Shown here one piece after another: positions 10,798-30,297 of a DNA stretch of 64,000 bases. Under the pieces are notes generated by a model. That model ran no database searches, had not been told where the DNA came from, and saw only the letters and a program-made list of their open reading frames with translations. The stretch spans positions 1-64,000 of the forward strand of contig NZ_JAGGPB010000035.1 of assembly GCF_018614055.1 (NCBI RefSeq), in the 5' to 3' direction. Both the position numbers and the translations under genes were made by a program. This stretch comes from Streptomyces sp. ISL-98 (lineage in GTDB: Bacteria > Actinomycetota > Actinomycetes > Streptomycetales > Streptomycetaceae). Position 1 is the first letter of the stretch; each line of letters starts with the position of its first letter.

Positions 10798-11439
10798 CTA
10801 GGCGATCTGCACCCTGCTGTGATCGCCCAGTACGAGGCGGTGTGCTGCGGGGTGCCTGGGTCACCTCGACGAAGTGGCCGATCAGGGAGGCCTGTATGCG
10901 TCGTACGCCGACGACACTGGCGCCGCGCAGGACGATGGAGTACTCGATCTCGCTGTCTTCGACGCGACAGTCCTCCGAGACCGAGGTGAACGGGCCGACG
11001 TACGAATCCTTGATCACGGTCCCGTAGCCGATGACGGCGGGGCCGACGATGCGGCTGGCCGTCACCTTCGCACCTGCCTCGATGCGGACCCGGCCGATGA
11101 GCTCACTGGCGTCGTCGACGCTTCCTTCGCTGCCGGGGTCCAGCGTTTCGAGCACCGTGCGGTTCACCTCAAGCATGTCCGGTGACATTCCCGGTGTCCT
11201 TCCAGTAGCCCGAGATTGTTGTGGAGCGCACGTCCCGGCCCTGGTCGATCAGCCACTGGATGGCGTCGGTGATCTCCGGCTCCCGATGCCGACGTCGGTG
11301 ATCGCGGCTTGCCCGATGGCTTCCAGGCCGTAGAACAGGACCGGTTTGTTGGCGACGGGGACCAGTTGCTTCGCCGAGGTGTGAGTGATCGGGCGGAGGC
11401 GGGTTCCCGCTCCGCCGAGGCGAGTACGAGCGCTTTCAT
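10798..11439 (-). pseudogene. rmlA: Decayed rmlA, frameshifted and internally deleted
   Basis: This is the remains of glucose-1-phosphate thymidylyltransferase of the long, left-handed beta-helix type, like the intact gene at 29233-30297. MKALVLA is followed by a frameshift, then another frame reads AKQLVPVANKPVLFYGLEAI. At about 11284 roughly 150 codons are missing and sequence resumes at EPEITDAIQWL and GYWKDTG. A second shift near 11190 leads into DMLEVNRTVLETL and the beta-helix repeats. A third, near 10850, leads to the true C-terminus AAHRLVLGDHSRVQIA and TAG at 10798. No functional product is possible. Confidence 0.82.
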
Positions 11440-13682: not shown

Positions 13683-15323
13683 TCAGCCTCCTTCCCCCGT
13701 GCGGTCCGTCCGCTCGCCCACGGCCGACAGCACGTACCGCGCGGTGCGCGCGATGAAGCGCACGGTGTGGGCCAGGGAGGGATCCGCCAGGAACTCCGCG
13801 TCCAGCGCCACCCTTTGGGGAACCATGACGTCGAGGTAGTACGCCTCGGGGTTCGGCTGCTTTTCGAGCTGCGCGGCGTACTCGCGCGACCTGAGCTGCA
13901 CCGGACCGGTCAGCCCCGGCCGGTAGTCGAGGACCCACCGGCAGTCGGGCGGGTAGCGCCGGGCCAGACCGGCGGTCTCCGGGCGCGGGCCCACCAGGGT
14001 CATGTCGCCGCGCGCCACGTTGAAGAGCTGCGGCAGTTCGTCGAGGGAGAAACGGCGCAGCTGCCGTCCCACCCGGGTGAACCGCGCGTCGCTGCTGCCC
14101 GTCACCTCCGGCCCCCACGCGCCCCTGCGCAGCGTACGGAACTTGTAGAGCGTGAACTCGGCCCCGTCCTCGCCGACGCGCTGCTGGCGGAACAGCACCC
14201 CTCCAGGGCCCGTGATCCGTACGAGCAACGCGACGACGGCCAGCACGGGGGAGAGCACGACCAGTGCCGCGACGCTGAACGTGACGTCCAGGATCCGGCG
14301 GGTCGCTCCCGGCCGCGTGGGCGTACCGGGCGGGCGGACGGGACCCGTCGGTGTGCTCTGCGCCAGGGCCGCTGAGCGGACTTCGCGCGAGAGAAGCCAG
14401 CGCAGGAAGCCCACGTACCCGACTGCTGTGTCACGCAGTTCGCGTCCGCTGCCGCGCAACGCCGCCCGCAGGAGCCGCGCAGCCGGTTCGACGGTCAGGG
14501 AGAGTGCGAGGAGCAGGCACGCCCGCAGGCGGGGCCAGTGCTGGAAGGCGAACAGGGTCCGGCTGCGCAGCGAGTGGCTCAGCCGCGTGCCCCGTATCTG
14601 ATCCGTGCTCACGTTCTCGGCGTGATAGACGCGTGCGGCGCGCAGGAAGTACGACGGCCGTCCCTGCCGACTCGCTCGCAGGGCGAGGTCCACCTCCTCG
14701 AAGTAGAGGAAGTAGCGCTCGTCGAAGCCCTCAAGCGCCTCGAACAGCGACCGGCGCATCAGATAGAAGGCGCCGATGACCTGGTCCACCGGCCCGGACT
14801 GAAGGGTTTCCTCGGGCGTCAGATGCCGGGGAGGGAAGAGCGCGGGCAGGAGACGGTCGAGGCCGGTCATCATGCCGACGTACGCGCGAAGGCTCGGGAA
14901 CCGCGAGGCCGAGATCCTGGGCCGCCCCTGCTCGTCGACGATCTGGACTCCGCAGATGCCGACCCGCTCGGCCGACGGCGTACACAAGAACTCTCCGACG
15001 ATCCGCAGGGTGTCGGGAAGGAGCCTGGTGTCCGGGTTCAGGAAAAGCAGGTATTCGGAGCCGCAGAGGGCGGCGCCCTGGTTGCAGGCGGCGGCGAATC
15101 CGCGGTTGCGGGCGTTGGTGATCACCTTGAGCCGGGGTCCGGACAGGTCGAGGTCGCATGCGGACCGGTCGCTGGAGGCGTTGTCCACCACGACCACGGA
15201 GTGGACGACGAGCGCGGACCGGTCGGCACGCGCGATGGAGTGCAGACATTCCTGCAGGTAGCGCCCGGTATTCCAGTTAACGATCACGATGTCGGCAACC
15301 GGTGCTGTCCGCGCGCCCGTCAT
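13683..15323 (-). CDS. Fusion: GT2 glycosyltransferase + phosphoglycosyl transferase
   Basis: A 546-residue two-domain protein. Residues 10-300 form a GT2 domain of the rhamnosyltransferase type: IVIVNWNTGRYLQECL, VDNASSDRS, NRGFAAACNQGA, the metal-binding LLFLNPDTRL and FDERYFLYFEEVDLALR. Residues 345-546 form a small monotopic phosphoglycosyl transferase (bacterial sugar transferase) with one re-entrant helix, QQRVGEDGAEFTLYKFRT, the catalytic Asp-Glu in SLDELPQLFNV, VGPRPE and PGLTGPVQLRSREY. The second half should start the glycan on undecaprenyl phosphate; the first could add the next sugar. ATG 15323 overlaps the upstream stop (ATGA). An upstream in-frame ATG at 15371 would overlap the neighbour by 52 bases. 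Confidence 0.88.
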   Translation of the reverse strand: MTGARTAPVADIVIVNWNTGRYLQECLHSIARADRSALVVHSVVVVDNASSDRSACDLDLSGPRLKVITNARNRGFAAACNQGAALCGSEYLLFLNPDTRLLPDTLRIVGEFLCTPSAERVGICGVQIVDEQGRPRISASRFPSLRAYVGMMTGLDRLLPALFPPRHLTPEETLQSGPVDQVIGAFYLMRRSLFEALEGFDERYFLYFEEVDLALRASRQGRPSYFLRAARVYHAENVSTDQIRGTRLSHSLRSRTLFAFQHWPRLRACLLLALSLTVEPAARLLRAALRGSGRELRDTAVGYVGFLRWLLSREVRSAALAQSTPTGPVRPPGTPTRPGATRRILDVTFSVAALVVLSPVLAVVALLVRITGPGGVLFRQQRVGEDGAEFTLYKFRTLRRGAWGPEVTGSSDARFTRVGRQLRRFSLDELPQLFNVARGDMTLVGPRPETAGLARRYPPDCRWVLDYRPGLTGPVQLRSREYAAQLEKQPNPEAYYLDVMVPQRVALDAEFLADPSLAHTVRFIARTARYVLSAVGERTDRTGEGG

Positions 15324-16399
15324 CTCCGCACCGCCGCCGTCTCGACGGCCGATTCCCAGCGTGGAAGCCACGCGTCGTAGGAGTACCGCCGGCAGGTGAT
15401 CTCATGGGCCTGCCGCCCGAGCCGCTCCCGGGTGGACACCGGCGAGTCCAGCAGGCTGAGGATCGCGTCGGTCCAGTCCTCGGCGTGTGGAGGGGCGGGC
15501 ATGGCGAACAGGGACAGAATCTCCGCGTTGACCCCGACGGGACTGGCGACCGCCGGCAGGCCCGCAGCACCGTACTGGAGCAGCTTGTAGCCGCATTTCC
15601 CCCGGCTGTAGGCGGTGTCGGGCACCGGCATGATGCCGATGTCGACCTCCGCCGGAGCCGTCCGCTGGCGGGCGGTGGTCCACTCGACGCGGTCGGTGAA
15701 GCTCTCCAGACGGCCGAGCGTGGGGCGCGTGGTGCCGATGATCGTCAGCCGGGCACCGGTCCTGCGGTGGACCTCGACGAGCGCGTCCTCGACGAGCAGC
15801 AGATGCGCCTCGTTGTCCGGCGAGCCGATCCAGCCCAGTCGCGGCGGATCGTGCAGGTGGTACGACGTCTTGCGTACGTACGCCTCGGGCGCCACGCAGC
15901 TGGGGATCACCACGACGTCTCTGTGGTGCTGGGAGGCCCAGTCCGCGAGGACGGCGTTGCCGGCGATCACCCGGTCGGCGTACCGCACGGCGACGCGCGC
16001 TTTTCCGGCCTTCGGGGCCAGCCTGCGCAGCAGACCGCCGCTGCCGTAGTCCCACTGAAGCGCGTCGTCGAAGTCGTACACGGCGAACTCCGAACGGGCG
16101 AGCAGCCGCCGTTCCGTCCCACCCCGGCTGAGCGGGGATGCCTCGCGGTGCAGCAGGAGCCGCCGTGGCCGGGCGGCCGCCATCTCGCGGAGCTGGCGCT
16201 CGGCGCGGGCGAGGGCGACGGGGCGGCGCGCGAGCTGTGCGGGCCTGGCGTTCCTGAGGGAGAGATAGCTGCTCACGGTGAACCGCAGTTCCGTGCGGTC
16301 CAGCCACTCGAACACGCGGACCCGCGAACTGCCTGCGTTCCGGCCGTAGGGCGTCACAGCACAGCGGTCCAGGTGATCGCGGTCCAGGCTGTCGTCCAT
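15320..16399 (-). CDS. GT4-like glycosyltransferase
   Basis: A 359-residue protein with a GT-B pattern: FAVYDFDDALQWDYG, ADRVIAGNAVLADWA, VVVIPSCVAPEAY, RLGWIGSPDNEAHL and, near the C-terminus, KCGYKLLQYGAAGLPAVASPVGVN. The last motif is the donor-nucleotide loop. It is the first gene of the operon 16399 to 11492, reading toward the left. Its promoter must lie in the 134-bp divergent region shared with the methyltransferase. The acceptor and sugar are unknown. Confidence 0.82.
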   Translation of the reverse strand: MDDSLDRDHLDRCAVTPYGRNAGSSRVRVFEWLDRTELRFTVSSYLSLRNARPAQLARRPVALARAERQLREMAAARPRRLLLHREASPLSRGGTERRLLARSEFAVYDFDDALQWDYGSGGLLRRLAPKAGKARVAVRYADRVIAGNAVLADWASQHHRDVVVIPSCVAPEAYVRKTSYHLHDPPRLGWIGSPDNEAHLLLVEDALVEVHRRTGARLTIIGTTRPTLGRLESFTDRVEWTTARQRTAPAEVDIGIMPVPDTAYSRGKCGYKLLQYGAAGLPAVASPVGVNAEILSLFAMPAPPHAEDWTDAILSLLDSPVSTRERLGRQAHEITCRRYSYDAWLPRWESAVETAAVRR

Positions 16400-17517: not shown

Positions 17518-19092
17518 TTACCCGGCGTCGTCGTGCTGTCGGCGGGAAAACGCTGCGCGTACCGACTCCGCGGCGAAACGGTACGTCATCCGCAACCGCT
17601 GCCGGTTTGAAACGGCCAGGCCCGCAGCGAACAGGAGTACGGAAGTTACGCCGCCCAGGGCCCCGGACAGCAGGTCGGAGCCCGCCCGTGTGGCGATCAC
17701 CCATCCGGCCGAGGCCGAACCAAGGCCTACCACCACCGGGCCGAGTACCTCAGGGAGCAGCCGTACACGCAGTCGCCGGGAGGTGGCCCGTACCAGGACT
17801 GCCGCTTCCGTCAGCGCCGAGGCGGTCCAGCCGAGCCCAATGGAGGCTACGCCGATCACCGGGAGCAGCGGCAACGTCACGGCGAACCAGGCAGCGAGCT
17901 GCAGGACTTCGGCACGCAGGACGGCTTTGGCGTCGTCAATAGCGTAGAGATAGCTCTGGGTGGCCACCGAAATCGAGCCGCCGATGAGCAGCGCCAGACA
18001 GGCACCTGGAAGGATCGTGCTCGCCTCACGCCACTGATTCCCGAAGAGGCCGGGGACAAGCCCCGGTGCGGAACCAACCATCGCCGTGAGGACGAAGCCT
18101 GTGCCCACGGCTGTCATGCCTGCGGCCCGCTCCACAAGTGGCCCCACGTCCTCCTTGCTTGCGACCAGCCGGGACATCGTGGGGAACGAGACGCGCGACA
18201 GCGACACGAAGAGTAACGAAGGGACCTCCGTCATCCGCCTGGCGAGAGTCCACAAGCCGAGTGCTGCGATGCCGCTGATCGCGGCGACGGTCACATTGAG
18301 CAGCTGGTCGCCCAGGATCCAGACGGCGTTGACTGCCTGGAACTGCAGGCCGAAACGTATGAGGGGCTTGATCAGGCGAGCCGAGAACCGGGGGCGTACG
18401 CGGCCTTCGCGGCAGGCGAGGGCCATGGCGAGCGCCCCGGTCGCAGCCCGGACGACAGTCGCCGTGGCCAGTCCCCATACGCCGAACCCGGCGATCACGG
18501 TGCCGATCGCCCAGGCTTGATAGCAGATCACTTGCGTGAGTTCGACCATGGCGAGACGCTGATAGCGCAGTGACCGCTCCAGCAGGATGCGGCCCGGGAA
18601 TTGCAGCGCGACCAACGGCATGGACGCCACCATGATCGCGGTTACCCAGCCGACCTGGCCGAACGGACTCACGGCTGCCACCGTCGCCGCCACCAATGTG
18701 CCGGCACTGGTGATGCCGAGTTGCAGCGCGCTCAATGCTCCGAGTTCATCGCGGGTGGGGGGTTCGTCGCGCCTGATGAGCCCGGCGCCGAGGCCGCCGT
18801 CAGAGATGAGTCCGGCGAAGAAAACAAACGTCATGCCAATGGCGACGACGCCGAATTCGCGCGGGGCGAGCAGGCGGGCGACGATGATGTTTCCGACGAA
18901 CCCGAGCAGCATGATCACCAGCCCGCGGGTTCCCACAATGAGGACGCCCGCCGACGCCCGCCGTCTCAACTCGCTTCGTGTAAGAGCGTCGTCGGCAGGG
19001 CCGGAAGAGTGATCGCCATCCCTATCGGCATCAGGTGACGGCTTGCCGAATTCAGGTCGCAGTGGCCATCTCCTGCGCCCTGTAGGCACCAT
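17518..19092 (-). CDS. Wzx-like polysaccharide flippase
   Basis: A 524-residue polytopic membrane protein of the MOP superfamily with about 12-14 hydrophobic segments. The N-terminal helix LIVGTRGLVIMLLGFVGNII is followed by VARLLAPREFGVVAIGM, the hallmark start of polysaccharide exporters (LGP-x-YG). It should flip undecaprenyl-diphosphate-linked repeat units to the outer face of the membrane. ATG 19092 has GAAGGGA eight bases upstream. The first 50 residues are hydrophilic and unusually long. It diverges from the polymerase gene at 19254, its expected partner. Confidence 0.86.
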   Translation of the reverse strand: MVPTGRRRWPLRPEFGKPSPDADRDGDHSSGPADDALTRSELRRRASAGVLIVGTRGLVIMLLGFVGNIIVARLLAPREFGVVAIGMTFVFFAGLISDGGLGAGLIRRDEPPTRDELGALSALQLGITSAGTLVAATVAAVSPFGQVGWVTAIMVASMPLVALQFPGRILLERSLRYQRLAMVELTQVICYQAWAIGTVIAGFGVWGLATATVVRAATGALAMALACREGRVRPRFSARLIKPLIRFGLQFQAVNAVWILGDQLLNVTVAAISGIAALGLWTLARRMTEVPSLLFVSLSRVSFPTMSRLVASKEDVGPLVERAAGMTAVGTGFVLTAMVGSAPGLVPGLFGNQWREASTILPGACLALLIGGSISVATQSYLYAIDDAKAVLRAEVLQLAAWFAVTLPLLPVIGVASIGLGWTASALTEAAVLVRATSRRLRVRLLPEVLGPVVVGLGSASAGWVIATRAGSDLLSGALGGVTSVLLFAAGLAVSNRQRLRMTYRFAAESVRAAFSRRQHDDAG

Positions 19093-19117
19093 GTCGTTCC
19101 CTTCTGGTAAGGACCTT

Positions 19118-19133
19118 CTCACCATAGGGTGAG
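19118..19133. promoter_or_regulatory. Inverted repeat between flippase and polymerase genes
   Basis: CTCACC ATAG GGTGAG is a perfect 6-4-6 inverted repeat in the 161-bp divergent gap, 26 bases upstream of the flippase start. It could be an operator or a small leader hairpin of the flippase transcript. Nothing shows which. Confidence 0.35.
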
Positions 19134-19253: not shown

Positions 19254-20552
19254 ATGACGCAGCAGGAGCCCCCATCCAACCCAAACATGGCAGGGCCTGC
19301 TGCACAGCGGCACCGGGTCGCTCTCATGCTCGTCCTGATTGCGGCTGCGATGCCGGTGCGTACCGCGGTACAGCTGCCGCTCATTCCCTCGGTTTCTGTA
19401 CTGGACATTCTGCTGGCGGCCGCCGCGGCGACCCTGCTCATCGATCTCGCATTCCGCCCGCTGGACATCGGGTATCCGCAGCTCTTCGCGCTCCTGTGCA
19501 TTCCCGTGGTCATCTGCGGACTTTCGGTTCTTTGGTCACAGGGCAGGGGGTACACGGCGCGTTCCACTATCATCTACGTGGAAGGGATCGTCGCCTATCT
19601 CTTTGCGCTGCGAGAACTTGGCGGGGCATCACCGAGTCGCATCATGACTTACATCAAGCGCTTCACGTACCTGCTGATAATTCCAGCTGTACTGCTGCTG
19701 CTTCACGCCCCCGGGTTTTCTCCGCGAGGAATCGAACTCTCCCCGTCCTCCGCCGAGTACCTTTCCTATTACTCCCGGCTCTCACACCCCGTGCTGGGCA
19801 AGTCCAACAATCTTGCCACCGCTCTCGCCTTCTTCATCCCGATCCTCCTTTACTGGGGGCATGTACACCGCGATCGCCGCATCACGCGAGCGGGATATAT
19901 CGCGCTCATCGCCGTGGTCCTCACTCTGTCGCGAGGTGTCGCTCTGGCACTGTTGATCACGGCAGCATGTGCAGCTCTGGGGAATGTCACGCGCCATCGG
20001 GGCATCGACAGCCGGGCGGCCGGCAAGACCCTCGGCGGCGTAGCGGTTATTGCAGCCGGAATAGTTTTGCTGTATCAGTTCAATCCTCGTACCCGTGAGT
20101 TCTTCGGTGGCCGGTTCAGCCAGGAGAACATCCTCATCCGATCCGACTTTGTGACGGCGGCGATCGAAAAGCTCGCCGAGCGGCCGTTCCTCGGCTACGG
20201 AGCCGGCGTCCCACCCGACTATGAGCTGGACCTGGCACGTGTTCACAACACTTATCTCCAGCAGGTGCTGAACTTCGGTCCACTGTTGGGATTGATCGTG
20301 TCGCTGTCATTGATCGGTACAGCGGTTTTCTTCTTCAGCCGTTGGCGCACCAGCGGCGTCGCTCGCGCCGTTGGGTTCACGCTCATGGCGCAACTCTTGA
20401 TCTTCGCAGTGGAGTCGAGTTTCGAAGGCACGGTCCTCCGGGTGCTGTTCTACCTTTCGGTCGGTCTCGCCACCGCTTTGACCCGGGCGTCCGAAGCGCA
20501 GGAGCAGCTCGGCCGCGAGCCGGGCGGAGGGAAGGTGTTGCATGCGCCATGA
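19254..20552 (+). CDS. O-antigen polymerase/ligase-like membrane protein (Wzy-like)
   Basis: A 432-residue polytopic protein with ten or more hydrophobic helices and a long periplasm-side loop (about residues 255-330) containing RTREFFGGRFSQENILIRSDF, then ERPFLGYGAGVPPDY and VHNTYLQQVLNFGPLLGL. The last two blocks are the Wzy_C/WaaL signature (GxG ... HN-x-YL). It should polymerise or ligate flipped repeat units outside the membrane. ATG 19254 follows GAGGATCC. Codon use is visibly less GC-biased than in flanking housekeeping genes. It overlaps the next gene by 11 bases. Confidence 0.83.
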   Translation: MTQQEPPSNPNMAGPAAQRHRVALMLVLIAAAMPVRTAVQLPLIPSVSVLDILLAAAAATLLIDLAFRPLDIGYPQLFALLCIPVVICGLSVLWSQGRGYTARSTIIYVEGIVAYLFALRELGGASPSRIMTYIKRFTYLLIIPAVLLLLHAPGFSPRGIELSPSSAEYLSYYSRLSHPVLGKSNNLATALAFFIPILLYWGHVHRDRRITRAGYIALIAVVLTLSRGVALALLITAACAALGNVTRHRGIDSRAAGKTLGGVAVIAAGIVLLYQFNPRTREFFGGRFSQENILIRSDFVTAAIEKLAERPFLGYGAGVPPDYELDLARVHNTYLQQVLNFGPLLGLIVSLSLIGTAVFFFSRWRTSGVARAVGFTLMAQLLIFAVESSFEGTVLRVLFYLSVGLATALTRASEAQEQLGREPGGGKVLHAP

Positions 20553-21438
20553 GCTGGTCATCTGTACCAGGAACAGGGCGGACGACACACGCCAGTGCCT
20601 GATCTCCGTCGCCGGGCAGTCCGCGCTTCCCGATCGGGTACTCGTCGTAGACAGCAGTGACACCGATGCGACGCGGCGGGTGACCGAGGCATTCAGAGGG
20701 CGGAGCGGGTTTGCCGTCGAATTCGTCGAGGCTCCCCCGGGGTTGACCATGCAGCGCAATGTGGCGCTCGACTGTCTGGATGAATCGACCGACGTGGTGC
20801 ACTTCGTCGACGACGACACGATTCTCGACCCGGGATATCTGCACGAGATTCTGGCGGCATTCGAGACGCATCCGGAAGCCGCCGGCGTGGGCGGTCGTAT
20901 CTCGAATCTTCCTGAGCACGCGCCGCGATGGTATCGCCGCGCCTTCCTGCTCGACAGCCGGCGAGAGGGCGTCCTGCTCCCCTCCGGGGTCAACGTACTG
21001 AGTTTCACCGGTGAACGGCCACGGCGGGTGGACTGGTTCTCGGGCTGCGCGATGTCCTATCGCTGCCGCTCCATCGCCGGGATGCGATTCGACGAGAGCC
21101 GCACGGGGGGCGGTATGGGGGAGGATGTGGACTTCTCGGCGCGGGTGGCGGCCAGGGCGCAACTCGTATGGACACCGAGGGCCGCTGTCGAACACCGGCT
21201 CTCATCAGTCAACCGCGAGGATCCGGGCATGGTCCTGCGGCGCATGATCCGTCACCGGTGGCGGCTCGCATCCGACGGCGTGGGACGCGTGAATCGGGCC
21301 GCAGTGCTCTATGCGATCGCCGGCGAGGTGTTTGTCTCGCTGGTCCTGGCAGCGTTTCACCGCTCCGGCCACTACGCACGGCTCGCCGTCGCGAGCGTCG
21401 CCGGTGCGGCCGACATCATCAGGGGCGTCCCGGTCTGA
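20542..21438 (+). CDS. GT2-family glycosyltransferase
   Basis: A 298-residue GT-A enzyme: ELVICTRNRADDTRQCL at the start, VLVVDSSDTDAT, GLTMQRNVALD, the metal-binding VHFVDDDTILDPGYL, and FDESRTGGGMGEDVDFSARVA, where ED is the likely catalytic base region. A hydrophobic C-terminal segment (AGEVFVSLVLAAF) may lie on the membrane. ATG 20542 lies inside the end of the polymerase gene, so the two are cotranslated. Its 3' end overlaps the convergent glycosyltransferase by 20 bases. The donor sugar is unknown. Confidence 0.86.
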   Translation: MRHELVICTRNRADDTRQCLISVAGQSALPDRVLVVDSSDTDATRRVTEAFRGRSGFAVEFVEAPPGLTMQRNVALDCLDESTDVVHFVDDDTILDPGYLHEILAAFETHPEAAGVGGRISNLPEHAPRWYRRAFLLDSRREGVLLPSGVNVLSFTGERPRRVDWFSGCAMSYRCRSIAGMRFDESRTGGGMGEDVDFSARVAARAQLVWTPRAAVEHRLSSVNREDPGMVLRRMIRHRWRLASDGVGRVNRAAVLYAIAGEVFVSLVLAAFHRSGHYARLAVASVAGAADIIRGVPV

Positions 21439-22561
21439 GCGCTTCCGTCGAACTGGGTCCGTCCAGAAGAGTCTCCAGGGGGCGAAGGGTGTTGTCCCAG
21501 GACAACTGATGCGCATGGGCGTACGCCTCGTCACTGACCGACTGCCAACGCTTTTCGTCGCTCAGCATGTCGATGCACGAGCGGAAGGTCTCCTCGGTGT
21601 AAAAAACGGATCCGGGCTCCAGCCCCGCATTGCGCCGCCACGCGGGGACAAGGACAGGAAGGCCGTAGGCGATGTAAGTCAGCTGCTTTGCCGAGAAGCC
21701 CTGTCGCATCGGCAAGTCCTTGCTGCAGGTGATCAGCCCGATCTGGTAGTTCCGCAGAACATCGGGCGGCGCGTATCCCAGGTAATTCAATTTCAGGCGC
21801 GGGTCGGGTGGCGGTCCACCGTACACATCGATGTTCGGGTACAGCGACGACAGACGTGCAAGGAGGGGGAGATTGATGAACCCTTCCATACCGAGGAATC
21901 CCAGGTAGACGATCCGTGGTGGATCGTCGAACCGCACCCGGTCGGCCGACGGCGTACATCCGTAATTGAGCGTTATCAGGTTGCGGCCACTGAGTCCGTA
22001 CTGCTCGACCGCATATTGCCCAATCGTCTCCCAAGAGAATGCCAAGTGGTCCACGCGCTCGAAAAGTCTGCTCTCGAAGCGGCGTAGCCTCTTGTGCTGC
22101 CGGGCAGTGAACCGGCCCTGGAAGTACGCTTCGTCCGCCCATGGCTGCGGGCAGTCGTACAGCGTGCGGGCAGACCGGACGGCAGTCAGTACCCCCGCGT
22201 TGTTCGGCGTCTCGCCGATCACCAGGTCGAAATCATCCAGCGGGAGCGACGATTTCAGGATGGCCCTCCGCAGACGGTGATCGGCCATGGCCAGGTGGTA
22301 CGAGAGACGGCGCCTGCCAAGTTCCCAACGGCGCGTGAGCAGCGCCGACGCGACCTCGGTCATATATAGGGCCAGCTTGTCGGGCCGCAGGGCGGGGAGT
22401 TTCCTCCGGATCGACCGGGGGGATCTGGAGGCCCGGCTCAGTCTGGACGTATCAAACAGACGTACCTCGTGCCCGCGCTCTTCGAGGAAGCGCTGAATCG
22501 CGAGGGGTCTCACGCTGTTGGCGTAGCCGTCCAATTGGCCGATGAGCAGAATGCGCTTCAT
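21419..22561 (-). CDS. GT4-like glycosyltransferase, paralogue A
   Basis: A 380-residue GT-B-type protein beginning KRILLIGQLDGYANSVRPL, with SLPLDDFDLVIGETPNNAGVL, TLYDCPQPWADEAYF, NLITLNYGCTPSADRVRF, IVYLGFLGMEGF and the donor-site loop SAKQLTYIAYGLPVLVPAW. It is closely related to the gene at 23998-25128, block by block. ATG 22561 overlaps the stop of the Wzz-like gene (ATGA). It is the last gene of a three-gene operon: paralogue B, Wzz-like, paralogue A. The sugar is unknown. Confidence 0.82.
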   Translation of the reverse strand: MKRILLIGQLDGYANSVRPLAIQRFLEERGHEVRLFDTSRLSRASRSPRSIRRKLPALRPDKLALYMTEVASALLTRRWELGRRRLSYHLAMADHRLRRAILKSSLPLDDFDLVIGETPNNAGVLTAVRSARTLYDCPQPWADEAYFQGRFTARQHKRLRRFESRLFERVDHLAFSWETIGQYAVEQYGLSGRNLITLNYGCTPSADRVRFDDPPRIVYLGFLGMEGFINLPLLARLSSLYPNIDVYGGPPPDPRLKLNYLGYAPPDVLRNYQIGLITCSKDLPMRQGFSAKQLTYIAYGLPVLVPAWRRNAGLEPGSVFYTEETFRSCIDMLSDEKRWQSVSDEAYAHAHQLSWDNTLRPLETLLDGPSSTEALRPGRP

Positions 22562-23982
22562 GGGGATCGCCCGGGAATGGTAGGGCCGGCGACCTGCTGC
22601 CCTTGTTCATTGCCCGGTCCGCTCTCCTGCTGAGCAGGCCTGGCCCACACATCGCCACGACGGCCGTTCGCCTGCGTGAGGATGGCGCCGAGGACCCTGA
22701 TGCCGACCGCGCGGAGGTACTGCACGGCCTGGCCGAGCTCGTCGCTCCTGGCCGCCTTGGTCCTGGCCACCACCACGACTTGGCCCACTGCGCGGCCCAG
22801 GACCACGGCGTCCGTCTGTGTCAGTACGGGGGGTGACGCGAAGATCACGACGTCTGCTCGGCGCTCGAGCTCGGCGCGCAGGGCGACGAGGGCGCCCTCG
22901 CGCAGCGGCGCCTGGCCTGAGCCCGGCTCGTGCTCACCGCTGGTGAGCACGAGAAGCGGCAGATCCGCACGCCACTTGCGCAACGCGAGGTCCAGAGGCG
23001 CCTGCTCGGCCAGCACTGCCCTCAGGCCCACGCCCGGCGAGAGTCCCAGCAGCCGGGCCAGGCGTGTATCGGACGTGTCTGCGTCAACCAGGGCGACCGA
23101 CGTGCCGCCTTCGGCCATGGCGATTGCCAGGCCGGCGGCTGTCGCCGTCGCTCCTCCGCCGCTGGGTTCCGTCAACACGTATGTCTGCGGCCCGGATCCG
23201 GACACGGTCAACTGCAAGTTGATCCCCAGTCGCCGATAAGCCTCGATCACCCTTGGGGGCCTCTGCCCACCCGTCGGCAGGGGGTTGCCCTCACGCACAC
23301 CGTCATCGGGCACAACGCCGAGAACGCTGACCCCGGCGGCGCGCACCAGATCGTCCACATCGCGCACCCGGCGGTCGGTGACCTCCCTTACCACCGCAGC
23401 GCCGATGCCCAGGACGAGCCCCGCCACCAGACCCAGCGCCATGTCGAGCTGCTTCTTGGGCGACACAGGTCCCGGCAGCAACTGCGCGGGGGCGAGCGAG
23501 CTCACTCCCGTCTCGGTCACTCCGGACTGGGGGGTATCCGGGGGACTCTCCACACCGGCCACCACACGGGAGAGCACCGGTCCGACAGAGTCAGCGATCT
23601 CCTTCGCCCGCTGCGCGGACCTGTCCTCCACAGTGAAGTCGATGACGGCGGTATCGGTCGGATTCGTGGCGCTGATCTTCCCTTGGAGCTCCTGGACCGA
23701 GTACGGCAGCTGCATTTCGTCGATAAGCGTCTTGACCACGTGCTGACTGGTCACCAGGTTGGTGTAGGACTTGGCCCGCTGCTGGGCGAGAAGGCCACCC
23801 TGGTACGCCTCGCTCGGTTCGGCGACCGTATCGGCAGCGGTCACGATCATCTGAGTTTTGGCCGCATATACCGGCGGCTGTGTCCACGCCACGGCGGCAC
23901 CCGCGGCCGTACCCAGCACGGTCAGCAAGAGGATGATGGACCAGCGTCTGCGGAACAGCCGGAGATACGTTCTGAGGTCCAT
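22558..23982 (-). CDS. Wzz/CpsCD-like chain-length protein with degenerate ATPase domain
   Basis: A 474-residue polysaccharide co-polymerase. A Wzz domain has helices at about 17-33 and 181-199 and an extracytoplasmic region between. Residues 215-450 resemble the BY-kinase (CpsD-type) ATPase. At the Walker A position the protein reads TEPSGGGATAT (271-281), with no lysine and no GKS/T. The A' motif keeps SVALVDADTSD (295-305), and the Walker B region reads DVVIFASPPVL, lacking the acidic residue of the usual DTPP. No C-terminal tyrosine cluster is seen. It probably sets chain length without kinase activity. GTG/ATG context supports the start at 23982. Confidence 0.82.
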   Translation of the reverse strand: MDLRTYLRLFRRRWSIILLLTVLGTAAGAAVAWTQPPVYAAKTQMIVTAADTVAEPSEAYQGGLLAQQRAKSYTNLVTSQHVVKTLIDEMQLPYSVQELQGKISATNPTDTAVIDFTVEDRSAQRAKEIADSVGPVLSRVVAGVESPPDTPQSGVTETGVSSLAPAQLLPGPVSPKKQLDMALGLVAGLVLGIGAAVVREVTDRRVRDVDDLVRAAGVSVLGVVPDDGVREGNPLPTGGQRPPRVIEAYRRLGINLQLTVSGSGPQTYVLTEPSGGGATATAAGLAIAMAEGGTSVALVDADTSDTRLARLLGLSPGVGLRAVLAEQAPLDLALRKWRADLPLLVLTSGEHEPGSGQAPLREGALVALRAELERRADVVIFASPPVLTQTDAVVLGRAVGQVVVVARTKAARSDELGQAVQYLRAVGIRVLGAILTQANGRRGDVWARPAQQESGPGNEQGQQVAGPTIPGRSP

Positions 23983-23997: not shown

Positions 23998-25128
23998 CTA
24001 GGAAAGCAGGGCCTCCAGTGGCCGGAGGGTCTCGTCCCAGGTGAGCCGCTGTGCCTGGGCGTACGCCTCGTCGCTGAGGGACTGCCACCGCTTCTCGTTG
24101 TTCAGCGACTCGATCACCGAGCGGAAGGTCTGCTCCGTATAGGTCACGGATCCGGCCAGCACATCCAGGTGACGCCGCCACGCGGGAACCAGAACAGGGA
24201 GTCCGTAGGCGAAGTAATTCAGGTGTTTTGAGGAGAAGCCGTCGCGCCTCAGCTGGTCCTTGCTGCACGTTACGATCCCGAGTTGGTAATTCTGCAACAC
24301 GTCGGGCGACGGCGCACGTCCGAGGTAATTCAGTCCGAGCTGCGGATCGGGTGGGCGCCCCGAGTACACATCGATGGGGTACTGCTTCGCAAGGCGCGCG
24401 AGGAGCGGTGGGTCGTTGAACCGCGAGCTGAGAAAGCCGAGGTAGACAATGCGTGGTGGGTCCTCGAACCGGGCGCGCTGAGCCGCTGGCGTGCAGCCGT
24501 AATTGAGAGTCATCAGATTACGGCCGCTGATCCGGTACTGCTCGACCGCGTATCGTGCGTACGACTCCCAGTGGAAGGACAAGTGGTCCACGTCTTCCAT
24601 CAGCCCGGTCTCCAGGCGGCGCAGCTTGAGATGCTGTCGACCGGTCAGCCTGCCCTCGTAATAAACCTCGTCCGCCCACGGAGCGGGGGCGTCGTACAAA
24701 GTGCGGGCGGAAACGGCGTCGGCCAGGACTCCTGCGTCGTAAGGGGTTTCGCAGATCAGCAGGTCGAAATCATCAAGCGGCAGCGACGACTTCAAGATGG
24801 TGCGTCGCAGACGGTGATCCGTGACCAGCACGTAGTAGGAGAGAAAGCGCCGACCGCGTCTCCCATAGCGTGTGAGCAGAGCCGATGCCACGTCGTTCGC
24901 GTACAGGGCCAACCTCGCGGGCCTGAGACTTGGGAGCTTTCTCCCCAAGGACCCGGCAGAGCTGGAGGCCCGACTCAGTGAGTACGTATCGACCAAGCGC
25001 ACCTCGTGCCCGCGTTCCTGGAGGAACCGCTCGATCTCCAGGGGTTTCCAGCTATTGGCGAAGCCGTCCATGGAGCCAATGACCAGGATGCGCTTGGCCT
25101 CCCCATTCCCCCTTCGCATGGATGTCAC
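23998..25128 (-). CDS. GT4-like glycosyltransferase, paralogue B
   Basis: A 376-residue GT-B-type protein, paralogue of 21419-22561: KRILVIGSMDGFANSWKPL, LRRTILKSSLPLDDFDLLIC, TLYDAPAPWADEVYYEGRL, NLMTLNYGCTPAAQRARF, RIVYLGFLSSRFNDPPLL and HLNYFAYGLPVLVPAWRR. GTG 25128 has GGAGGGAG seven bases upstream; an internal ATG three codons later lacks such a site. It heads the operon with the Wzz-like gene 15 bases downstream. The two copies probably transfer related sugars or act in succession. Confidence 0.82.
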   Translation of the reverse strand: MTSMRRGNGEAKRILVIGSMDGFANSWKPLEIERFLQERGHEVRLVDTYSLSRASSSAGSLGRKLPSLRPARLALYANDVASALLTRYGRRGRRFLSYYVLVTDHRLRRTILKSSLPLDDFDLLICETPYDAGVLADAVSARTLYDAPAPWADEVYYEGRLTGRQHLKLRRLETGLMEDVDHLSFHWESYARYAVEQYRISGRNLMTLNYGCTPAAQRARFEDPPRIVYLGFLSSRFNDPPLLARLAKQYPIDVYSGRPPDPQLGLNYLGRAPSPDVLQNYQLGIVTCSKDQLRRDGFSSKHLNYFAYGLPVLVPAWRRHLDVLAGSVTYTEQTFRSVIESLNNEKRWQSLSDEAYAQAQRLTWDETLRPLEALLS

Positions 25129-25383
25129 CGACTCCCTCCTTGCCCACGTCGATGATCAATGAATCCGCCACAGCACGCCCTGCCATCGCTTCTGATCACT
25201 GACATAACACATGCTGCCCGCGCGGACGGGCGGGCTGATCGCGCACACGACGTACCAAAAGCCGTCCTTGGACCGCATCCGGCCGAGCCGACGGCTGCCT
25301 AGGGTCGTCTCAACTGGTACGCGTGGAACGCCACTGGCTTACGGAGTAGCGGATCAGGTGGCCCCGGTCTCAAGGAGTTATCG
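25129..25383. promoter_or_regulatory. Divergent promoter region, 255 bp
   Basis: This gap separates the paralogue-B operon (minus) from the aminotransferase-dehydratase fusion (plus) and must carry both promoters. It includes an AT-richer stretch (TGATCAATGAATC around 25152, and TCACTGACATAACACATG around 25197-25214). AAGGAG at 25372-25377 is the ribosome site of the fusion gene. No perfect operator was found. Confidence 0.5.
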
Positions 25384-28134
25384 GTGATGATGGTCCACCG
25401 GCTGGATGTCCGGCGAGCCCGGGGACCGGGCGGCCTCCGGGGAGCGGGGACGCGTGTGCCTGCGGCCGAGCAATTGGCGGTGCCGTTCGCTGTCACCGAG
25501 ATCAGCCCTGAGGCCAGGAAGGCGACGCAGCGCGTGCTTGCCTCCGGGTGGGTGACCAGTGGGCCGGAGACCGAACAGTTCGAGCGCGAGTTCGCAGCAA
25601 CCGTTCAGGCCGGGCATGCGGTTGCCGTGAGCTCTTGTACAGCGGCGATCGAGCTGGCATTCCGTGCCCTTCGGCTGCCTCCCGACAGCAACGTACTGCT
25701 GCCGACGCTGACCTTCTGCGGCGCGGCCGAGGCGATCGTGCACGCCGGGCTCCGGCCCGTGCTGGTCGACGTCGACCCGCGCACCGCGATGGCCTCCCCG
25801 GACACGGTCGCCGCGGCGGCCCGCGAGTGCGGGCGCCCCGCTGCCATGCTCGTCTTGCACTTCGCCGGAGCTCCGGCGCCGCTGGAGGAGCTGGCGGAGG
25901 CGGCCGGACTGCCGCTGGACCTCGTCATCGAGGACGCCGCCCACGGGCTGGGGACCTCCGTCGACGGCCGTCCCGTAGGCGCGCTCTCCCGGGCCGCCTG
26001 CTTCAGCTTCTACGCGACCAAGAACCTGCCGATCGGTGAAGGCGGCATGGTGACCACCGAGGACCCCGACCTCGCCGAGCGGATCCGCCGCGGGCGGCTG
26101 CATGGCATGTCCACGGATGCCTGGCGCCGCAATCTGCCGGGCGGAAGCTGGCGCTACACCGTCGAGGACGCCGGCCTGAAGGCCAACATGACCGATGTGC
26201 AGGCCGCGATCGGGCGGGCGCAGCTTGGTCACCTGTCCGGCTGGCAGCATCGGCGTGACGCGATCGCCATCTGGTACACGGCCCGACTGCGGCGGGTGCC
26301 CGGCCTGATCCTGCCCATGGCCCCGGTCCACGGCCGCCATGCCTGGCACCTGTACGTCGTGCGGGTTCTGGAGGAGTACGGGATGAGCCGCGACGAGCTG
26401 ATCACCGAGCTGGCGGAGCGCGGGATCGGCACGTCCGTGCACTTCATCCCGCTGCATCACATGCCCTACTTCCAGCAGGCCGCCCTGTCCCCGCAGGGGG
26501 GCCTGCCCGGAGCCGATGCGCTCTTCCCCCAGCTCCTGTCGCTGCCGATGTACCCCGCCCTCACCGAGGGCCAGGTCGACCGGGTCTGCACCGCGCTCAA
26601 GGAACTCGGCCGCCCGCCCGCACGGCAGCGCCCTGCGATCGCGACCTCGCTGACGACGGCAGTGGACAGCGCGCGGCAGGCAGACCACGCGGGGCTGCGT
26701 ACGCTCGTGATCGGCGCGGGGGAGGCCGGGCAGGCCCTCGCACGGGACCTGGCGAGGACACCCGAGTTCGGTTTGGTTCCCGTGGGATTCTTGGACGACC
26801 GCCCGGCCAGGCGGCTCGGCGACGGCCTGTCGGTGCTGGGCGGTCTGGACGATACCGAAGCGGCCGTTCGGGCCCACGGTGCCGAGGTGGTCGTCGTGGC
26901 CATTCCCGGGCTGCCGACGGAGCGCTTCCACCGGGTTGCCGAAGCGGCCGCCGCGGCGGGGGCCAGCGTCCGTTTCCTGCCGCCATTCATCGCGGCGCTG
27001 CGCCGTGAGGTAGTGGGCACCGACATGCGCTCGCTGGACGTCCAGCGGCTGATCGGGCGCACGGAGATGCATGTGGTCAGTCCGGAAGCGCGCTCGATCA
27101 TCGCCGGGCGGCGCGTTCTGGTTACCGGTGCCGGCGGGTCGATCGGGAGCGAGCTGTGCCGACAGGTACGCGGTTTCGAACCGAGTCGGCTGTTCCTGCT
27201 CGACCACGACGAGTCGAACCTGCACCGGCTGCAGCTCGAGCTGTACGGCGATGCGCTCCTCGACGACGACATCGTGATCTCGGACATCCGGGACCGAGCC
27301 CGGATCGACCAGCTCTTCCATGACTGCCGGCCCGATGTGGTCTTCCACGCCGCCGCGCACAAGCACCTTCCGCTGCTCGAGCGCAATCCCTGCGAGGGAG
27401 TCAAGTCGAACGTGCTGGGTACCGAGCACCTCGTCCGGGCCGCAGTCGAATCCGGCGTCGAGCGGTTCATCCTCATCTCCACGGACAAGGCGGCCGACCC
27501 CGTTTCGGTCCTGGGCGCGACGAAGCGGCTGGCGGAGCTGATAGTCCAGGCCAACGACGGCGGCCCGACCGTATTCGCTGCTGTCCGCTTCGGCAATGTG
27601 CTCGGCAGCCGTGGCTCGCTGTTGTCCGTGGTGGCGGAGCAGCTGGGGTCGAGGATGCCGGTGACCGTGACTCACCCGGACGTCACCCGCTACTTCATGA
27701 CGATCGAGGAGGCTGTCGGACTCGTCCTGGAGGCGGCGCGGATGGCAGCCGACGGCGAGGTGTTCGTCCTCGACATGGGTGACCCGGTGCGGATCGTCGA
27801 CCTCATCCAGAGGTTCGCCCAGACGATCAACGCACAGGACGTGCAGATCCGATACACCGGTCTGCGGCCAGGGGAGAAGCTGAACGAGGCACTGTTCTCC
27901 GAGTCCGAGGAGTGCGCCCGGACCGCCCATTCGAGAATCTTCGTCACGAACGCCGCCCCGCAGCACAGCCCCGCCGTCCTGCATCAGCAGCTCGCGGCCC
28001 TCTACACCGCCACGGAGCACAACGACACGACGCAGACCCGCCTCTTGCTCGCGCGCCTGCTGCCAGGTTTCCCCGCCTCGTCCTCACCCGATCTCGTTAG
28101 TCCATTGACAGATCCGTACCCGGACGACTTCTGA
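25384..28134 (+). CDS. Fusion: DegT/DnrJ-type sugar aminotransferase + nucleotide-sugar 4,6-dehydratase
   Basis: A 916-residue bifunctional protein. Residues 30-420 form a DegT/DnrJ/EryC1/PglE-type PLP aminotransferase: GWVTSGPETEQFE, AVSSCTAAIELAF, VIEDAAHGLGT, and the PLP lysine K213 in SFYATKNLPIGEGG. Residues 440-570 form a Rossmann CoA-binding-like domain (TLVIGAGEAGQALA). Residues 578-870 are a PglF/FlaA1/CapD dehydratase: LVTGAGGSIGSELCRQV, HAAAHKHLPLLE, STDKAADPVSVLGATKR. The catalytic Tyr position is Leu710 (LxxxK714), resembling PglF, which has Met there. The four membrane helices of PglF are absent. Order suggests UDP-HexNAc dehydration followed by C4 amination. GTG 25384 suits the ribosome site best; ATGs at 25387 and 25390 are alternatives. 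Confidence 0.9.
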   Translation: MMMVHRLDVRRARGPGGLRGAGTRVPAAEQLAVPFAVTEISPEARKATQRVLASGWVTSGPETEQFEREFAATVQAGHAVAVSSCTAAIELAFRALRLPPDSNVLLPTLTFCGAAEAIVHAGLRPVLVDVDPRTAMASPDTVAAAARECGRPAAMLVLHFAGAPAPLEELAEAAGLPLDLVIEDAAHGLGTSVDGRPVGALSRAACFSFYATKNLPIGEGGMVTTEDPDLAERIRRGRLHGMSTDAWRRNLPGGSWRYTVEDAGLKANMTDVQAAIGRAQLGHLSGWQHRRDAIAIWYTARLRRVPGLILPMAPVHGRHAWHLYVVRVLEEYGMSRDELITELAERGIGTSVHFIPLHHMPYFQQAALSPQGGLPGADALFPQLLSLPMYPALTEGQVDRVCTALKELGRPPARQRPAIATSLTTAVDSARQADHAGLRTLVIGAGEAGQALARDLARTPEFGLVPVGFLDDRPARRLGDGLSVLGGLDDTEAAVRAHGAEVVVVAIPGLPTERFHRVAEAAAAAGASVRFLPPFIAALRREVVGTDMRSLDVQRLIGRTEMHVVSPEARSIIAGRRVLVTGAGGSIGSELCRQVRGFEPSRLFLLDHDESNLHRLQLELYGDALLDDDIVISDIRDRARIDQLFHDCRPDVVFHAAAHKHLPLLERNPCEGVKSNVLGTEHLVRAAVESGVERFILISTDKAADPVSVLGATKRLAELIVQANDGGPTVFAAVRFGNVLGSRGSLLSVVAEQLGSRMPVTVTHPDVTRYFMTIEEAVGLVLEAARMAADGEVFVLDMGDPVRIVDLIQRFAQTINAQDVQIRYTGLRPGEKLNEALFSESEECARTAHSRIFVTNAAPQHSPAVLHQQLAALYTATEHNDTTQTRLLLARLLPGFPASSSPDLVSPLTDPYPDDF

Positions 28135-29213
28135 TGCCCGGGCCCGGCGACCGGTTTCCCGGCTGGCCTCCTCGGCCTGCCGGAGCGCGCCGTCGGCGGC
28201 GCGGCCGCGCGGTGCTGGTGTTCCTCGTGGTCGCCGCGCTCGGGCTCGTCGCCCTCACTGCGGGTGGCCTGTGGTGGGCTTCGGAGCACTACACCGACCG
28301 TGTCGAGCGCCTGCCCAACGTCTTCCCGCACCACAACGACCGACCGGACAAGCAGGGGGACGACGGTGCGCTGAATTTCCTGGTGGCAGGCATCGACAGC
28401 CGCTCCGACCTGCCGACTACCGGTAAGAACAGCAAAGCCGACCTGTGGAAGCCGGGGGCGCAGCGCAGCGACACGCTGATGCTGCTGCACCTGGCGGCCG
28501 ATCGCCACAAGGCATACGTGGTTTCCGTACCCCGGGACACCTGGGTGCCGATCCCCGGTCATGGCGACGCCAAGATCAATGCTTCGTTCTCCTTGGGCGG
28601 CCCGCCGCTGCTCATCGACACCGTGGAGAAGCTCACCGGAATCCGCATCGACCACTTCGCTGTAATCGACTGGGACGGGTTCAAGTCCCTCACCGACTCC
28701 GTCGGCGGAGTGACCCTGACCGTTCCGCAAGACACCTATGACACCGAACAGCATCGCGGCTGGAAAGCCGGCACCTACACGATGAACGGCGAGGAAGCGT
28801 TGGACTATGTGCGACAGCGGCATGGTCTGCCCCGAAGCGACTTCGACCGCATCGCGCGGCAGCAGAACTTCCTGCGCACCTTGATGAGCAAGATGCGCGG
28901 CGACATCAGCTTCACCAACCCCGGCGGCGTCATCGACGTCCTCGACGCGTTCACGGATGCGGTGAGCGTGGACGACCAACTGTCCAACAGCGAGCTGCGC
29001 ACACTCGCGTTCGACCTGCGCGATCTGAAGACCCGGGACGTGACGTTCATGACCGCGCCCATCGCACGGTCCGACTTCATCAAGGGCCAGAGCGTGGTGA
29101 TCATGGACCGGGCCAAGTCGAAGAGCCTCTGGCCCGCGATCGTCCAGGACCGACTGCCCGACTGGATCCGGCAGCATGGCGACGCCGATGTCCTTGGCAG
29201 CACCGTACGGTGA
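28134..29213 (+). CDS. LytR-CpsA-Psr (LCP) glycopolymer transferase
   Basis: A 359-residue type II membrane protein. A basic N-terminus precedes one helix (AVLVFLVVAALGLVALTAGGLWW, about residues 26-48), with the LCP domain outside. LNFLVAGIDSR, RSDTLMLLHL, VVSVPRDTWVPIP, KINASFSLGGPPLLIDTVE and DYVRQRHGLPRSDFDRIARQQ carry the conserved Asp/Arg residues that bind the polyprenyl diphosphate. LCP enzymes attach undecaprenyl-linked glycans to peptidoglycan by a phosphodiester bond. Here it would anchor the glycan made by the locus. Its ATG overlaps the upstream stop by one base (TGATG), so it is coupled to the fusion gene. Confidence 0.92.
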   Translation: MPGPGDRFPGWPPRPAGARRRRRGRAVLVFLVVAALGLVALTAGGLWWASEHYTDRVERLPNVFPHHNDRPDKQGDDGALNFLVAGIDSRSDLPTTGKNSKADLWKPGAQRSDTLMLLHLAADRHKAYVVSVPRDTWVPIPGHGDAKINASFSLGGPPLLIDTVEKLTGIRIDHFAVIDWDGFKSLTDSVGGVTLTVPQDTYDTEQHRGWKAGTYTMNGEEALDYVRQRHGLPRSDFDRIARQQNFLRTLMSKMRGDISFTNPGGVIDVLDAFTDAVSVDDQLSNSELRTLAFDLRDLKTRDVTFMTAPIARSDFIKGQSVVIMDRAKSKSLWPAIVQDRLPDWIRQHGDADVLGSTVR

Positions 29214-29232: not shown

Positions 29233-30297
29233 TCAGGCAATCGAGACCTGGCTGTGGTCGCCGAGCACCAGCCGGTGTGCCGTCGGCATCCCCGTCGACG
29301 GGACCACCCGGACCCTTCTCCCGATCAGGGAGTTCTCGATGCGTGTCGCCCCCCTGATGGTGGCCTCGTCCATCACGATCGAGTACTCCAGTTCCGTCCC
29401 CTCGATCAGACACGAGTTCTGTACTGACGTATACGGCCCGATGTACGAGTCGACGATGCGGGTGTTCCGGCCGATCACCACAGGGCCGCGCACAACTGAG
29501 CGCTCGATCCGCGAGCCCTCCTCCGCGATGAGTTCGCCGATGATCTGGCTGCCCTCGTCCACGTAGCCGTCCACGCGGCCGCTCACTGACTCCAGCACTT
29601 TGCGGTTGCACTCGAGCATGTCCTCCGGCCGCCCGGTGTCCTTCCAGTATCCGTTGACGATGTGCGACCGCACCGAGTGACCGCCGTCGAGGAGCCACAG
29701 GATGGCATCGGTGATCTCCAGCTCGCCACGTCGGCTCGGGCTGATCGCGCGGACCGCCTCATGGACCAGAGGGCCGAACATATAAACGCCGACCAGAGCG
29801 AGGTCGCTCTTGGGGCGGGACGGCTTCTCCTCCAGGCCTATCACCCGGCCCGTCTCGTCCAGCTCGGCCACCCCGAAGGCTCGCGGCTCCGCGACGGGCG
29901 TCAGCAGTATCTGTGCGTCGTGAATGCCATGCTTGAACTCCTTGACCAGCTCGGTGATGCCGCCAATGAGGAAGTTGTCGCCGAGGTACATGACGAAATC
30001 GTCACCGGCGAGATATTCGCGGGCGATGAGCACAGCGTGCGCGAGGCCGAGCGGGGCTTCCTGCCGGATGTAGGTGATGCGAAGCCCGTCAGGGCCGGAG
30101 TCGTCGACCGCCCCCCGGATCTCCTGCTCTGTTTCGCCCACAACCATGCCCACATCGGTTACGCCTGCATCCTGGATCGCTTCCAGCACGTAGAACAGCA
30201 CCGGCTTGTTGGCGATCGGTACGAGCTGCTTGGCATAGGTATGTGTGATGGGCAGCAGGCGCGTCCCCGAACCGCCCGCGAGAACGAGTGCCTTCAT
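29233..30297 (-). CDS. rmlA: Glucose-1-phosphate thymidylyltransferase, long form
   Basis: A 354-residue nucleotidyltransferase for the first step of dTDP-rhamnose synthesis. The N-terminal domain has LAGGSGTRLLPITHTYAKQL, IANKPVLFYVLEAI, VMYLGDNFL and the EKPSRPKSDLALVGVY block. The C-terminal 110 residues form a left-handed beta-helix (hexapeptide-like GPVVIGRNTRIVDSYIGPYTS), as in actinobacterial antibiotic-pathway thymidylyltransferases, rather than the 290-residue RmlA of enterobacteria. ATG 30297 follows GGAGCG. It is the only intact rmlA here, 20 kb from rmlBCD, and a wrecked relative lies at 10798-11439. Confidence 0.92.
   Translation of the reverse strand: MKALVLAGGSGTRLLPITHTYAKQLVPIANKPVLFYVLEAIQDAGVTDVGMVVGETEQEIRGAVDDSGPDGLRITYIRQEAPLGLAHAVLIAREYLAGDDFVMYLGDNFLIGGITELVKEFKHGIHDAQILLTPVAEPRAFGVAELDETGRVIGLEEKPSRPKSDLALVGVYMFGPLVHEAVRAISPSRRGELEITDAILWLLDGGHSVRSHIVNGYWKDTGRPEDMLECNRKVLESVSGRVDGYVDEGSQIIGELIAEEGSRIERSVVRGPVVIGRNTRIVDSYIGPYTSVQNSCLIEGTELEYSIVMDEATIRGATRIENSLIGRRVRVVPSTGMPTAHRLVLGDHSQVSIA

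Follow-up and report, generated by a model that had tools for sequence, protein, structure and literature searches.

A gene of Streptomyces sp. ISL-98 encodes, in one uninterrupted reading frame, an aminotransferase of the DegT/DnrJ/EryC1/StrS family followed by a PglF/WbpM-type nucleotide-sugar 4,6-dehydratase. It lies on the forward strand of the 64,000-nucleotide stretch analysed here (the window; RefSeq assembly GCF_018614055.1, contig NZ_JAGGPB010000035.1, positions 1 to 64,000), which, as judged by its gene content, holds a Wzx/Wzy-type polysaccharide cluster. The fusion is a real, inherited, natural joining of two known enzyme kinds, and no description of an aminotransferase/4,6-dehydratase fusion was found in the literature searched by title and abstract opening, a search that left most subscription papers outside. 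From sequence and predicted fold, we consider it probable that the product is a soluble two-step enzyme that would convert UDP-N-acetylglucosamine (UDP-GlcNAc) into a UDP-4-amino-4,6-dideoxy-N-acetylhexosamine for the surrounding cluster.

A single-frame fusion in Streptomyces

The frame contains no internal stops and has a coding-type GC distribution (0.74/0.49/0.87 by codon position). An AAGGAG element at 25372-25377 precedes three possible starts, GTG 25384, ATG 25387 and ATG 25390; ATG 25387 is probably used instead of GTG 25384, because most of the fused relatives displayed open with MTVH- and the window protein reads MMVH- from codon 2. The aminotransferase and dehydratase parts proposed in a first-pass annotation of this DNA were recovered by Pfam, which placed a DegT aminotransferase, a CoA_binding_3 and a Polysacc_synt_2 domain in one protein, all three scoring over their cut-offs (Table 1). 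The AlphaFold model (28 sequences, mean predicted local distance difference test score (pLDDT) 81, predicted template modelling score 0.51) consists of two mostly well-formed domains joined by a low-confidence linker (residues 414-435), with further low-confidence stretches at the N-terminus, residues 239-269 and 533-550 and the tail (905-916). Foldseek matched its first half to ArnB and its second to PglF (target-normalised TM-scores 0.88-0.91; 0.91 with 38% identity for PglF), and PDB sequence searches gave the same top solved relatives, ArnB for the aminotransferase half and PglF (5bju; 248 bits over 307 aligned residues) for the dehydratase half.

Full-length fusions were present in 8 of 392 sampled Streptomyces genomes, the window's own included, the other seven at 71-74% identity, and addition of named genomes brought the total to 22 distinct fused Streptomyces loci, again with the window's own. 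In a sample of 394 genomes of the class (E up to 1e-90), full-length one-frame matches were restricted to two Streptomyces (G000 and G238). Both genome searches scored two candidates per genome, so that the counts in the genus are lower bounds. The fusion was not found in any other genus searched, with genome sampling staying within the class and other phyla unsampled; the named-locus search kept the best 80 of 214 candidates, and fusions of more distant pairs of these enzymes could be missed. A sequencing or assembly error joining two genes, the artefact that the first-pass annotation had itself raised, is ruled out for all practical purposes by the 21 other distinct fused loci in independent genomes. 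The domains are conserved across these loci while the linker varies, measuring 13-59 residues in 19 of the 22 proteins (the search pattern failed to locate it in the other three). Both halves are under purifying selection, with ratios of nonsynonymous to synonymous substitution rates (dN/dS, Nei-Gojobori) of 0.22-0.30 for the aminotransferase and 0.19-0.37 for the dehydratase in four close fused pairs, of which two have a row in common.

The motifs of both halves are intact in the window protein, as the first-pass annotation had stated: K213, D184 and H187 in the pyridoxal phosphate (PLP)-dependent domain, and GAGGSIGSE and T700-D701-K702...L710-x3-K714 in the dehydratase. Motif counts across homologues used 97 of 115 loci, after 18 that repeated another locus had been dropped; the window's own gene appears twice in these counts and in the trees (also as L001), so that 23 fused rows represent 22 loci. 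The PLP lysine is invariant (23/23 fused, 38/38 split-pair and 9/9 aminotransferase-only rows), which together with the Pfam and ArnB fold matches identifies a DegT fold with an internal-aldimine lysine. The Polysacc_synt_2 core carries the GxxGxxG motif of its family. In PMC8987622, the PglF/WbpM dehydratase motif is given as TDKxnMx3K, Met replacing the Tyr of short-chain dehydrogenases/reductases (SDRs); the proposed chemistry is assigned to PglF T395, D396 and K397, and the Met reportedly does not act as the base. Alignment with 5bju places T700, D701 and K702 on those three residues and L710 on M405; the window protein thus has the triad and K714, with Leu, neither Met nor Tyr, at position 710. 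This Leu, correctly singled out in the first-pass annotation, is not surprising: it is found in 23/23 fused rows and, where no aminotransferase of this type adjoins, in 23 of 28 dehydratases, with Met in the other five (L086, L104 and L109-L111). Leu710 as a sign of lost activity was rejected, since Leu is the common actinobacterial state and Met is reported not to be the base in PglF (PMC8987622). All but one of the fused rows (22 of 23) retain the full T-D-K triad, the exception being the copy in genome G198, with Ala for Thr. Among stand-alone dehydratase homologues, four (L005-L008) lack the lysine of the triad through a deletion and carry Gln or His in place of K714, and are likely pseudo-enzymes as judged by these residues.

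Split relatives, the C-terminal tail and loss of the dehydratase half

Among unfused homologues, the closest are 15 adjacent gene pairs, aminotransferase then dehydratase, from Intrasporangiaceae, Catenulispora and metagenome-assembled genomes (MAGs) labelled Dermatophilaceae, Chloroflexi, Gemmatimonadetes and Dormibacteraeota, with halves that are 56-66% identical; Humibacillus and Terrabacter are among the sources of split pairs. In 12 of the 15 pairs a possible start codon of the dehydratase lies in a 4-base overlap (ATGA or GTGA) with the aminotransferase stop codon, and one more allows a TGATG overlap. The domain order, second enzyme first, had been called unusual in the first-pass annotation; it is simply the gene order of these relatives. 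The absence of the membrane helices typical of PglF/WbpM, also noted there, was confirmed ahead of the dehydratase domain and is equally unremarkable: a hydropathy scan found none in the 15 split pairs, and truncated WbpM is active without them, according to PMC8987622. Truncated PglF has likewise been used to make the 4-keto sugar (PMC10653937). By the same scan, 2-4 membrane segments precede 18 of the 28 lone dehydratases, those with no aminotransferase match whose end falls between 400 bases upstream and 120 bases downstream of where the dehydratase match begins.

Both trees unite the Streptomyces rows in one supported group (aminotransferase 99/99, dehydratase 100/99), within which five aminotransferase-only rows and one dehydratase-only row are nested. 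The root of the aminotransferase tree is unsure owing to a long row (L023), and the label changes within the group are most simply read as losses. Since the nearest unfused genes lie side by side in the domain order of the fusion, 12 of the 15 pairs with a possible 4-base overlap, the fusion apparently arose once, in a Streptomyces lineage, by joining two coupled, overlapping operon genes that were already in this order and whose dehydratase was already free of membrane helices; a single fusion is the simplest reading, which the trees do not prove.

Several split loci had further features. In two (L056:8503-9987 and L061:7059-8402), a protein of 447-494 residues without a Pfam match is encoded immediately upstream of the aminotransferase; in two (L055:12633-14240 and L056:12694-15170), an RtcB-like protein comes after the dehydratase, joined in L056 by an HPr-kinase-like protein that scores below cut-off, which is unusual company for sugar enzymes. 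In the Actinomadura and Spirillospora pairs (L072-L108), the partner dehydratase has neither a detectable CoA_binding_3 domain nor the exact TDK string and often carries Met at the K714 position; it is probably a degenerate enzyme kept next to the aminotransferase.

A short motif, Y[PA]D[DG][FY], stands immediately before the stop codon in 22/22 fused proteins and in 15/15 split pairs with a TDK dehydratase (37/37). None of the others scored has it (0/50): 28 are dehydratases with no aminotransferase of this kind next to them, and 22 belong to Actinomadura/Spirillospora pairs in which the dehydratase has neither the exact TDK string nor a detectable CoA_binding_3 domain. The scoring covered 96 loci, with the window's own left out; nine aminotransferase-only loci gave no dehydratase row, one split-pair dehydratase cut by a contig end (L073) was unscored, and the rows are related and do not count as independent events. 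Among 5197 open stretches (at least 150 codons, loci of at least 12 kb, repeats included), 36 end with the motif and all 36 are these dehydratases, 33 assigned by the motif test and three by inspection (L031, L045 and L047); the motif is also present in one more split pair (G761). Eight of the 28 lone, tail-less dehydratases (L019, L020, L094, L096, L097, L111, L113 and L115) have a more distant aminotransferase (30-45% identity) in their locus, directly upstream in L111, which makes the tail a mark of this lineage of pairs and not of pairing generally; its absence in those eight loci goes with a membrane-type dehydratase, not with an unpaired state. It is missing from the stand-alone L005-L008 and from the stand-alone L032 of genome G198, each within a clade otherwise having it. 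L032 lies about 15 kb from the fused copy of that genome (L031) and has an intact TDK. The tail, disordered in the monomer model, may be a docking peptide for the aminotransferase.

Five Streptomyces loci retain the aminotransferase and lack a working dehydratase half: it stands alone in L034, in L067 of S. olindensis and in L068, and in L053 and L057 the catalytic core of the dehydratase half is deleted with the reading frame preserved. The TGATG overlap with a downstream LytR-CpsA-Psr (LCP) gene, seen in 22/22 fused loci, is kept in four of the five, the outcome expected from in-frame deletion inside a fused gene; L068, unlike the others, has no LCP gene after it. In the aminotransferase tree L067 sits beside the fused L042, L068 beside L043 and L049, and L053 and L057 beside L027, L034 being unresolved; given these different positions, the dehydratase half was lost or decayed at least three separate times. 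The top PF02719 match elsewhere in these five genomes scores 65-70 bits, the level of other SDRs (the completeness of G408-G411 is not given and a missed dehydratase is possible), and five fused genomes tested gave one match each, or two in G198, at 315-342 bits. For L053 and L057, dN/dS was 0.19 in the aminotransferase and 0.73 in the dehydratase remnant (one pair, crude method). The repeated loss of the dehydratase while the aminotransferase persists argues against obligate channelling of an unstable 4-keto intermediate; any channelling by the fused protein, as the first-pass annotation had proposed, would be non-obligatory.

Predicted pathway and competing explanations

Aminotransferases and 4,6-dehydratases of these families catalyse consecutive steps in amino-sugar pathways. 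Consecutive action of the two halves, which the first-pass annotation had offered as its own inference, gains support from the apparent catalytic integrity of both and from the adjacency of their genes, in the same order, in the relatives. The C-terminal half would dehydrate UDP-GlcNAc to UDP-2-acetamido-2,6-dideoxy-4-keto-hexose by the PglF mechanism, Thr700 and Asp701 oxidising C4 and Lys702 handling C6, with Leu in place of the usual Tyr. The N-terminal PLP half would then aminate C4 with glutamate, giving UDP-2-acetamido-4-amino-2,4,6-trideoxy-hexose with either the gluco (bacillosamine) or the galacto (2-acetamido-4-amino-2,4,6-trideoxygalactose, AAT-Gal) configuration, an amino sugar predicted to feed the surrounding Wzx/Wzy cluster. 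UDP-sugars are favoured because the best solved relatives, in sequence and fold, are PglF, a UDP-GlcNAc 4,6-dehydratase, and ArnB, a UDP-sugar C4 aminotransferase. The two top NCBIfam models for the aminotransferase, PseC (TIGR03588, 292 bits, cut-off 423.5) and ArnB (NF008658, 287.9 bits, cut-off 631), are also of UDP-sugar C4 aminotransferases, both matched below their equivalog cut-offs. The dehydratase half is unlikely to act on dTDP-glucose, and the window has its own RmlB.

Three observations weigh against sequential action on UDP-GlcNAc. The five related loci keep the aminotransferase with neither a working dehydratase half nor another close PF02719 enzyme, and the aminotransferase there may have another substrate; RmlA, RmlB and RmlC are all encoded in the window, so that a dTDP-4-keto sugar is available; and the fused copy of G198 carries Ala in place of Thr700, with TDK intact in the stand-alone copy of that genome. 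The first two, together with the contrasting dN/dS values of the L053/L057 pair, also fit an arrangement in which the aminotransferase uses RmlB's dTDP-4-keto-6-deoxyglucose, the dehydratase supplies a UDP-4-keto sugar elsewhere and the fusion fixes only stoichiometry or stability. We regard this as unlikely: the 15 catalytic split pairs keep their genes together and share the C-terminal tail, the best aminotransferase models and structures are of UDP-sugar types, and the window's RmlA, compared at E up to 1e-15 with the 43 loci tabulated, whose flanks reach at most about 10 kb, was matched in none of them, which leaves RmlA unsupported as a pathway partner. A fusion on its way to losing one half, with the dehydratase mostly a scaffold whose enzymatic role is largely lost, would account for its repeated loss or decay in Streptomyces, the lost TDK lysine in L005-L008, the Met in place of K714 in 22 of 38 split-pair rows (those displayed, 11 in number, being from Actinomadura) and the Thr-to-Ala change in one fused copy. 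It seems highly improbable for the window protein, which has the catalytic residues, and for the intact fused pairs, whose dehydratase halves are under the purifying selection described above.

Sequential two-step catalysis is the preferred reading. If it holds, this protein alone would turn UDP-GlcNAc into a 4-amino-4,6-dideoxy sugar donor, and would offer a clean test of whether a reactive 4-keto intermediate is channelled in nature. A more specific version, put forward tentatively and as rather unlikely, is a two-active-site synthase in which the YPDD[FY] tail docked the separate ancestral proteins, was later made redundant or reinforced by fusion, and allowed the 4-keto sugar to pass between the sites. 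Dehydratase loss in sister Streptomyces would then mean an aminotransferase released to a new 4-keto donor, and the fused, decayed and freed states would form a natural series. Split-overlapping, fused, decayed and freed versions all occur in living relatives, making the consequences of fusion testable by comparing homologues.

Gene neighbourhood and comparison with known systems

The LCP gene that overlaps the fused gene has a homologue immediately downstream in 19/19 fused loci tabulated. Enzymes of the LCP family link glycopolymers to peptidoglycan, which makes a wall-linked polymer likely, and the product of the cluster is probably attached to the cell wall through this protein; the stop/start overlap ties the amino-sugar step to the LCP gene and hints that the sugar ends in such a polymer. 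The probable priming enzyme, a two-domain GT2 and Bac_transf protein, is matched at 55-64% identity in 7 of the 19 other fused loci that were tabulated and at 42-51% in five more; the one match whose domains were checked (L031) has Bac_transf only. No PglD/NeuD-type acetyltransferase (TIGR03570) scored over cut-off in the genome of the window, and in the two of eight fused genomes searched that have one, its distance from the fused gene exceeds 100 kb; the sugar is therefore expected to keep a free 4-amine or to be acylated by a different enzyme. A 144-residue open reading frame at 10754-11188 (reverse strand), considered as a PglD-type acetyltransferase for its LbH-like appearance, was rejected as such, since it matches only positions 226-336 of 353 of the long-form RmlA model (TIGR01208) and is apparently a gene remnant.

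Table 1 Features of the fused gene and its neighbourhood in the window.
Feature	Position	Strand	Details
Fused aminotransferase/4,6-dehydratase gene	25384..28134	+	916 codons from GTG 25384; probable start ATG 25387
DegT/DnrJ/EryC1/StrS aminotransferase domain, residues 41-405	25504..26598	+	Pfam PF01041 DegT_DnrJ_EryC1, 348.6 bits
PLP lysine K213 of aminotransferase domain	26020-26022	+	
Disordered inter-domain linker, residues 414-435	26623..26688	+	pLDDT <50
CoA_binding_3 domain, residues 430-533, N-terminal to dehydratase core	26671..26982	+	Pfam PF13727, 34.9 bits, cut-off 25
PglF/WbpM-type 4,6-dehydratase core, Polysacc_synt_2, residues 578-855	27115..27948	+	Pfam PF02719, 336.1 bits, cut-off 20.2
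Predicted catalytic Thr700-Asp701-Lys702 (PglF T395-D396-K397)	27481..27489	+	Alignment with 5bju
Leu710 at SDR Tyr position (Met405 in PglF)	27511..27513	+	Alignment with 5bju
C-terminal YPDDF tail	28117..28131	+	Common to intact dehydratases paired or fused with this aminotransferase
TGATG stop/start overlap of fused gene with LCP gene	28132..28136	+	
LCP glycopolymer transferase	28134..29213	+	Pfam PF03816, 164.2 bits
GT2 + Bac_transf (phosphoglycosyl transferase) protein, probable priming enzyme	13683..15371	-	562 residues, two domains in one protein
Wzx-type flippase	17518..19125	-	
Wzy/O-antigen-ligase-type polymerase	19254..20552	+	
Family 2 glycosyltransferase	20542..21438	+	
GT4-like glycosyltransferase	21419..22561	-	Weak, below Pfam cut-off
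Wzz/tyrosine-autokinase-type chain-length protein	22558..23982	-	
Probable glycosyltransferase without Pfam match	23998..25128	-	In other loci, best match on same stretch as that of the 21419-22561 glycosyltransferase
RmlA adjoining LCP gene	29233-30297		

In Campylobacter jejuni, the N,N'-diacetylbacillosamine (diNAcBac) pathway uses two distinct proteins, PglF and PglE, the former with a membrane part at its N-terminus. The same two consecutive reactions are predicted for the fusion, which shares with PglF a T-D-K triad without the SDR Tyr. It differs in being one soluble protein with the aminotransferase first and with Leu for Met; in the genome, no acetyltransferase of the PglD type scored over cut-off, and with no such enzyme nearby, a complete PglF-PglE-PglD pathway is not recognised. 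Multifunctional UDP-rhamnose enzymes also join a dehydratase to other activities, these being, according to PMC8987622, a 3,5-epimerase and a 4-reductase, not a PLP aminotransferase. The EpsC/EpsN/EpsM/EpsL system of Bacillus subtilis, as described in PMC10653937, is a precedent in which a 4,6-dehydratase and an aminotransferase supply an exopolysaccharide cluster that includes a phosphoglycosyl transferase, and differs by its separate proteins and dedicated acetyltransferase, EpsM. The split aminotransferase-dehydratase operons of Intrasporangiaceae, Catenulispora and MAGs have the same order, no helix seen and the same kind of tail, and differ from the Streptomyces fusion in being two genes.

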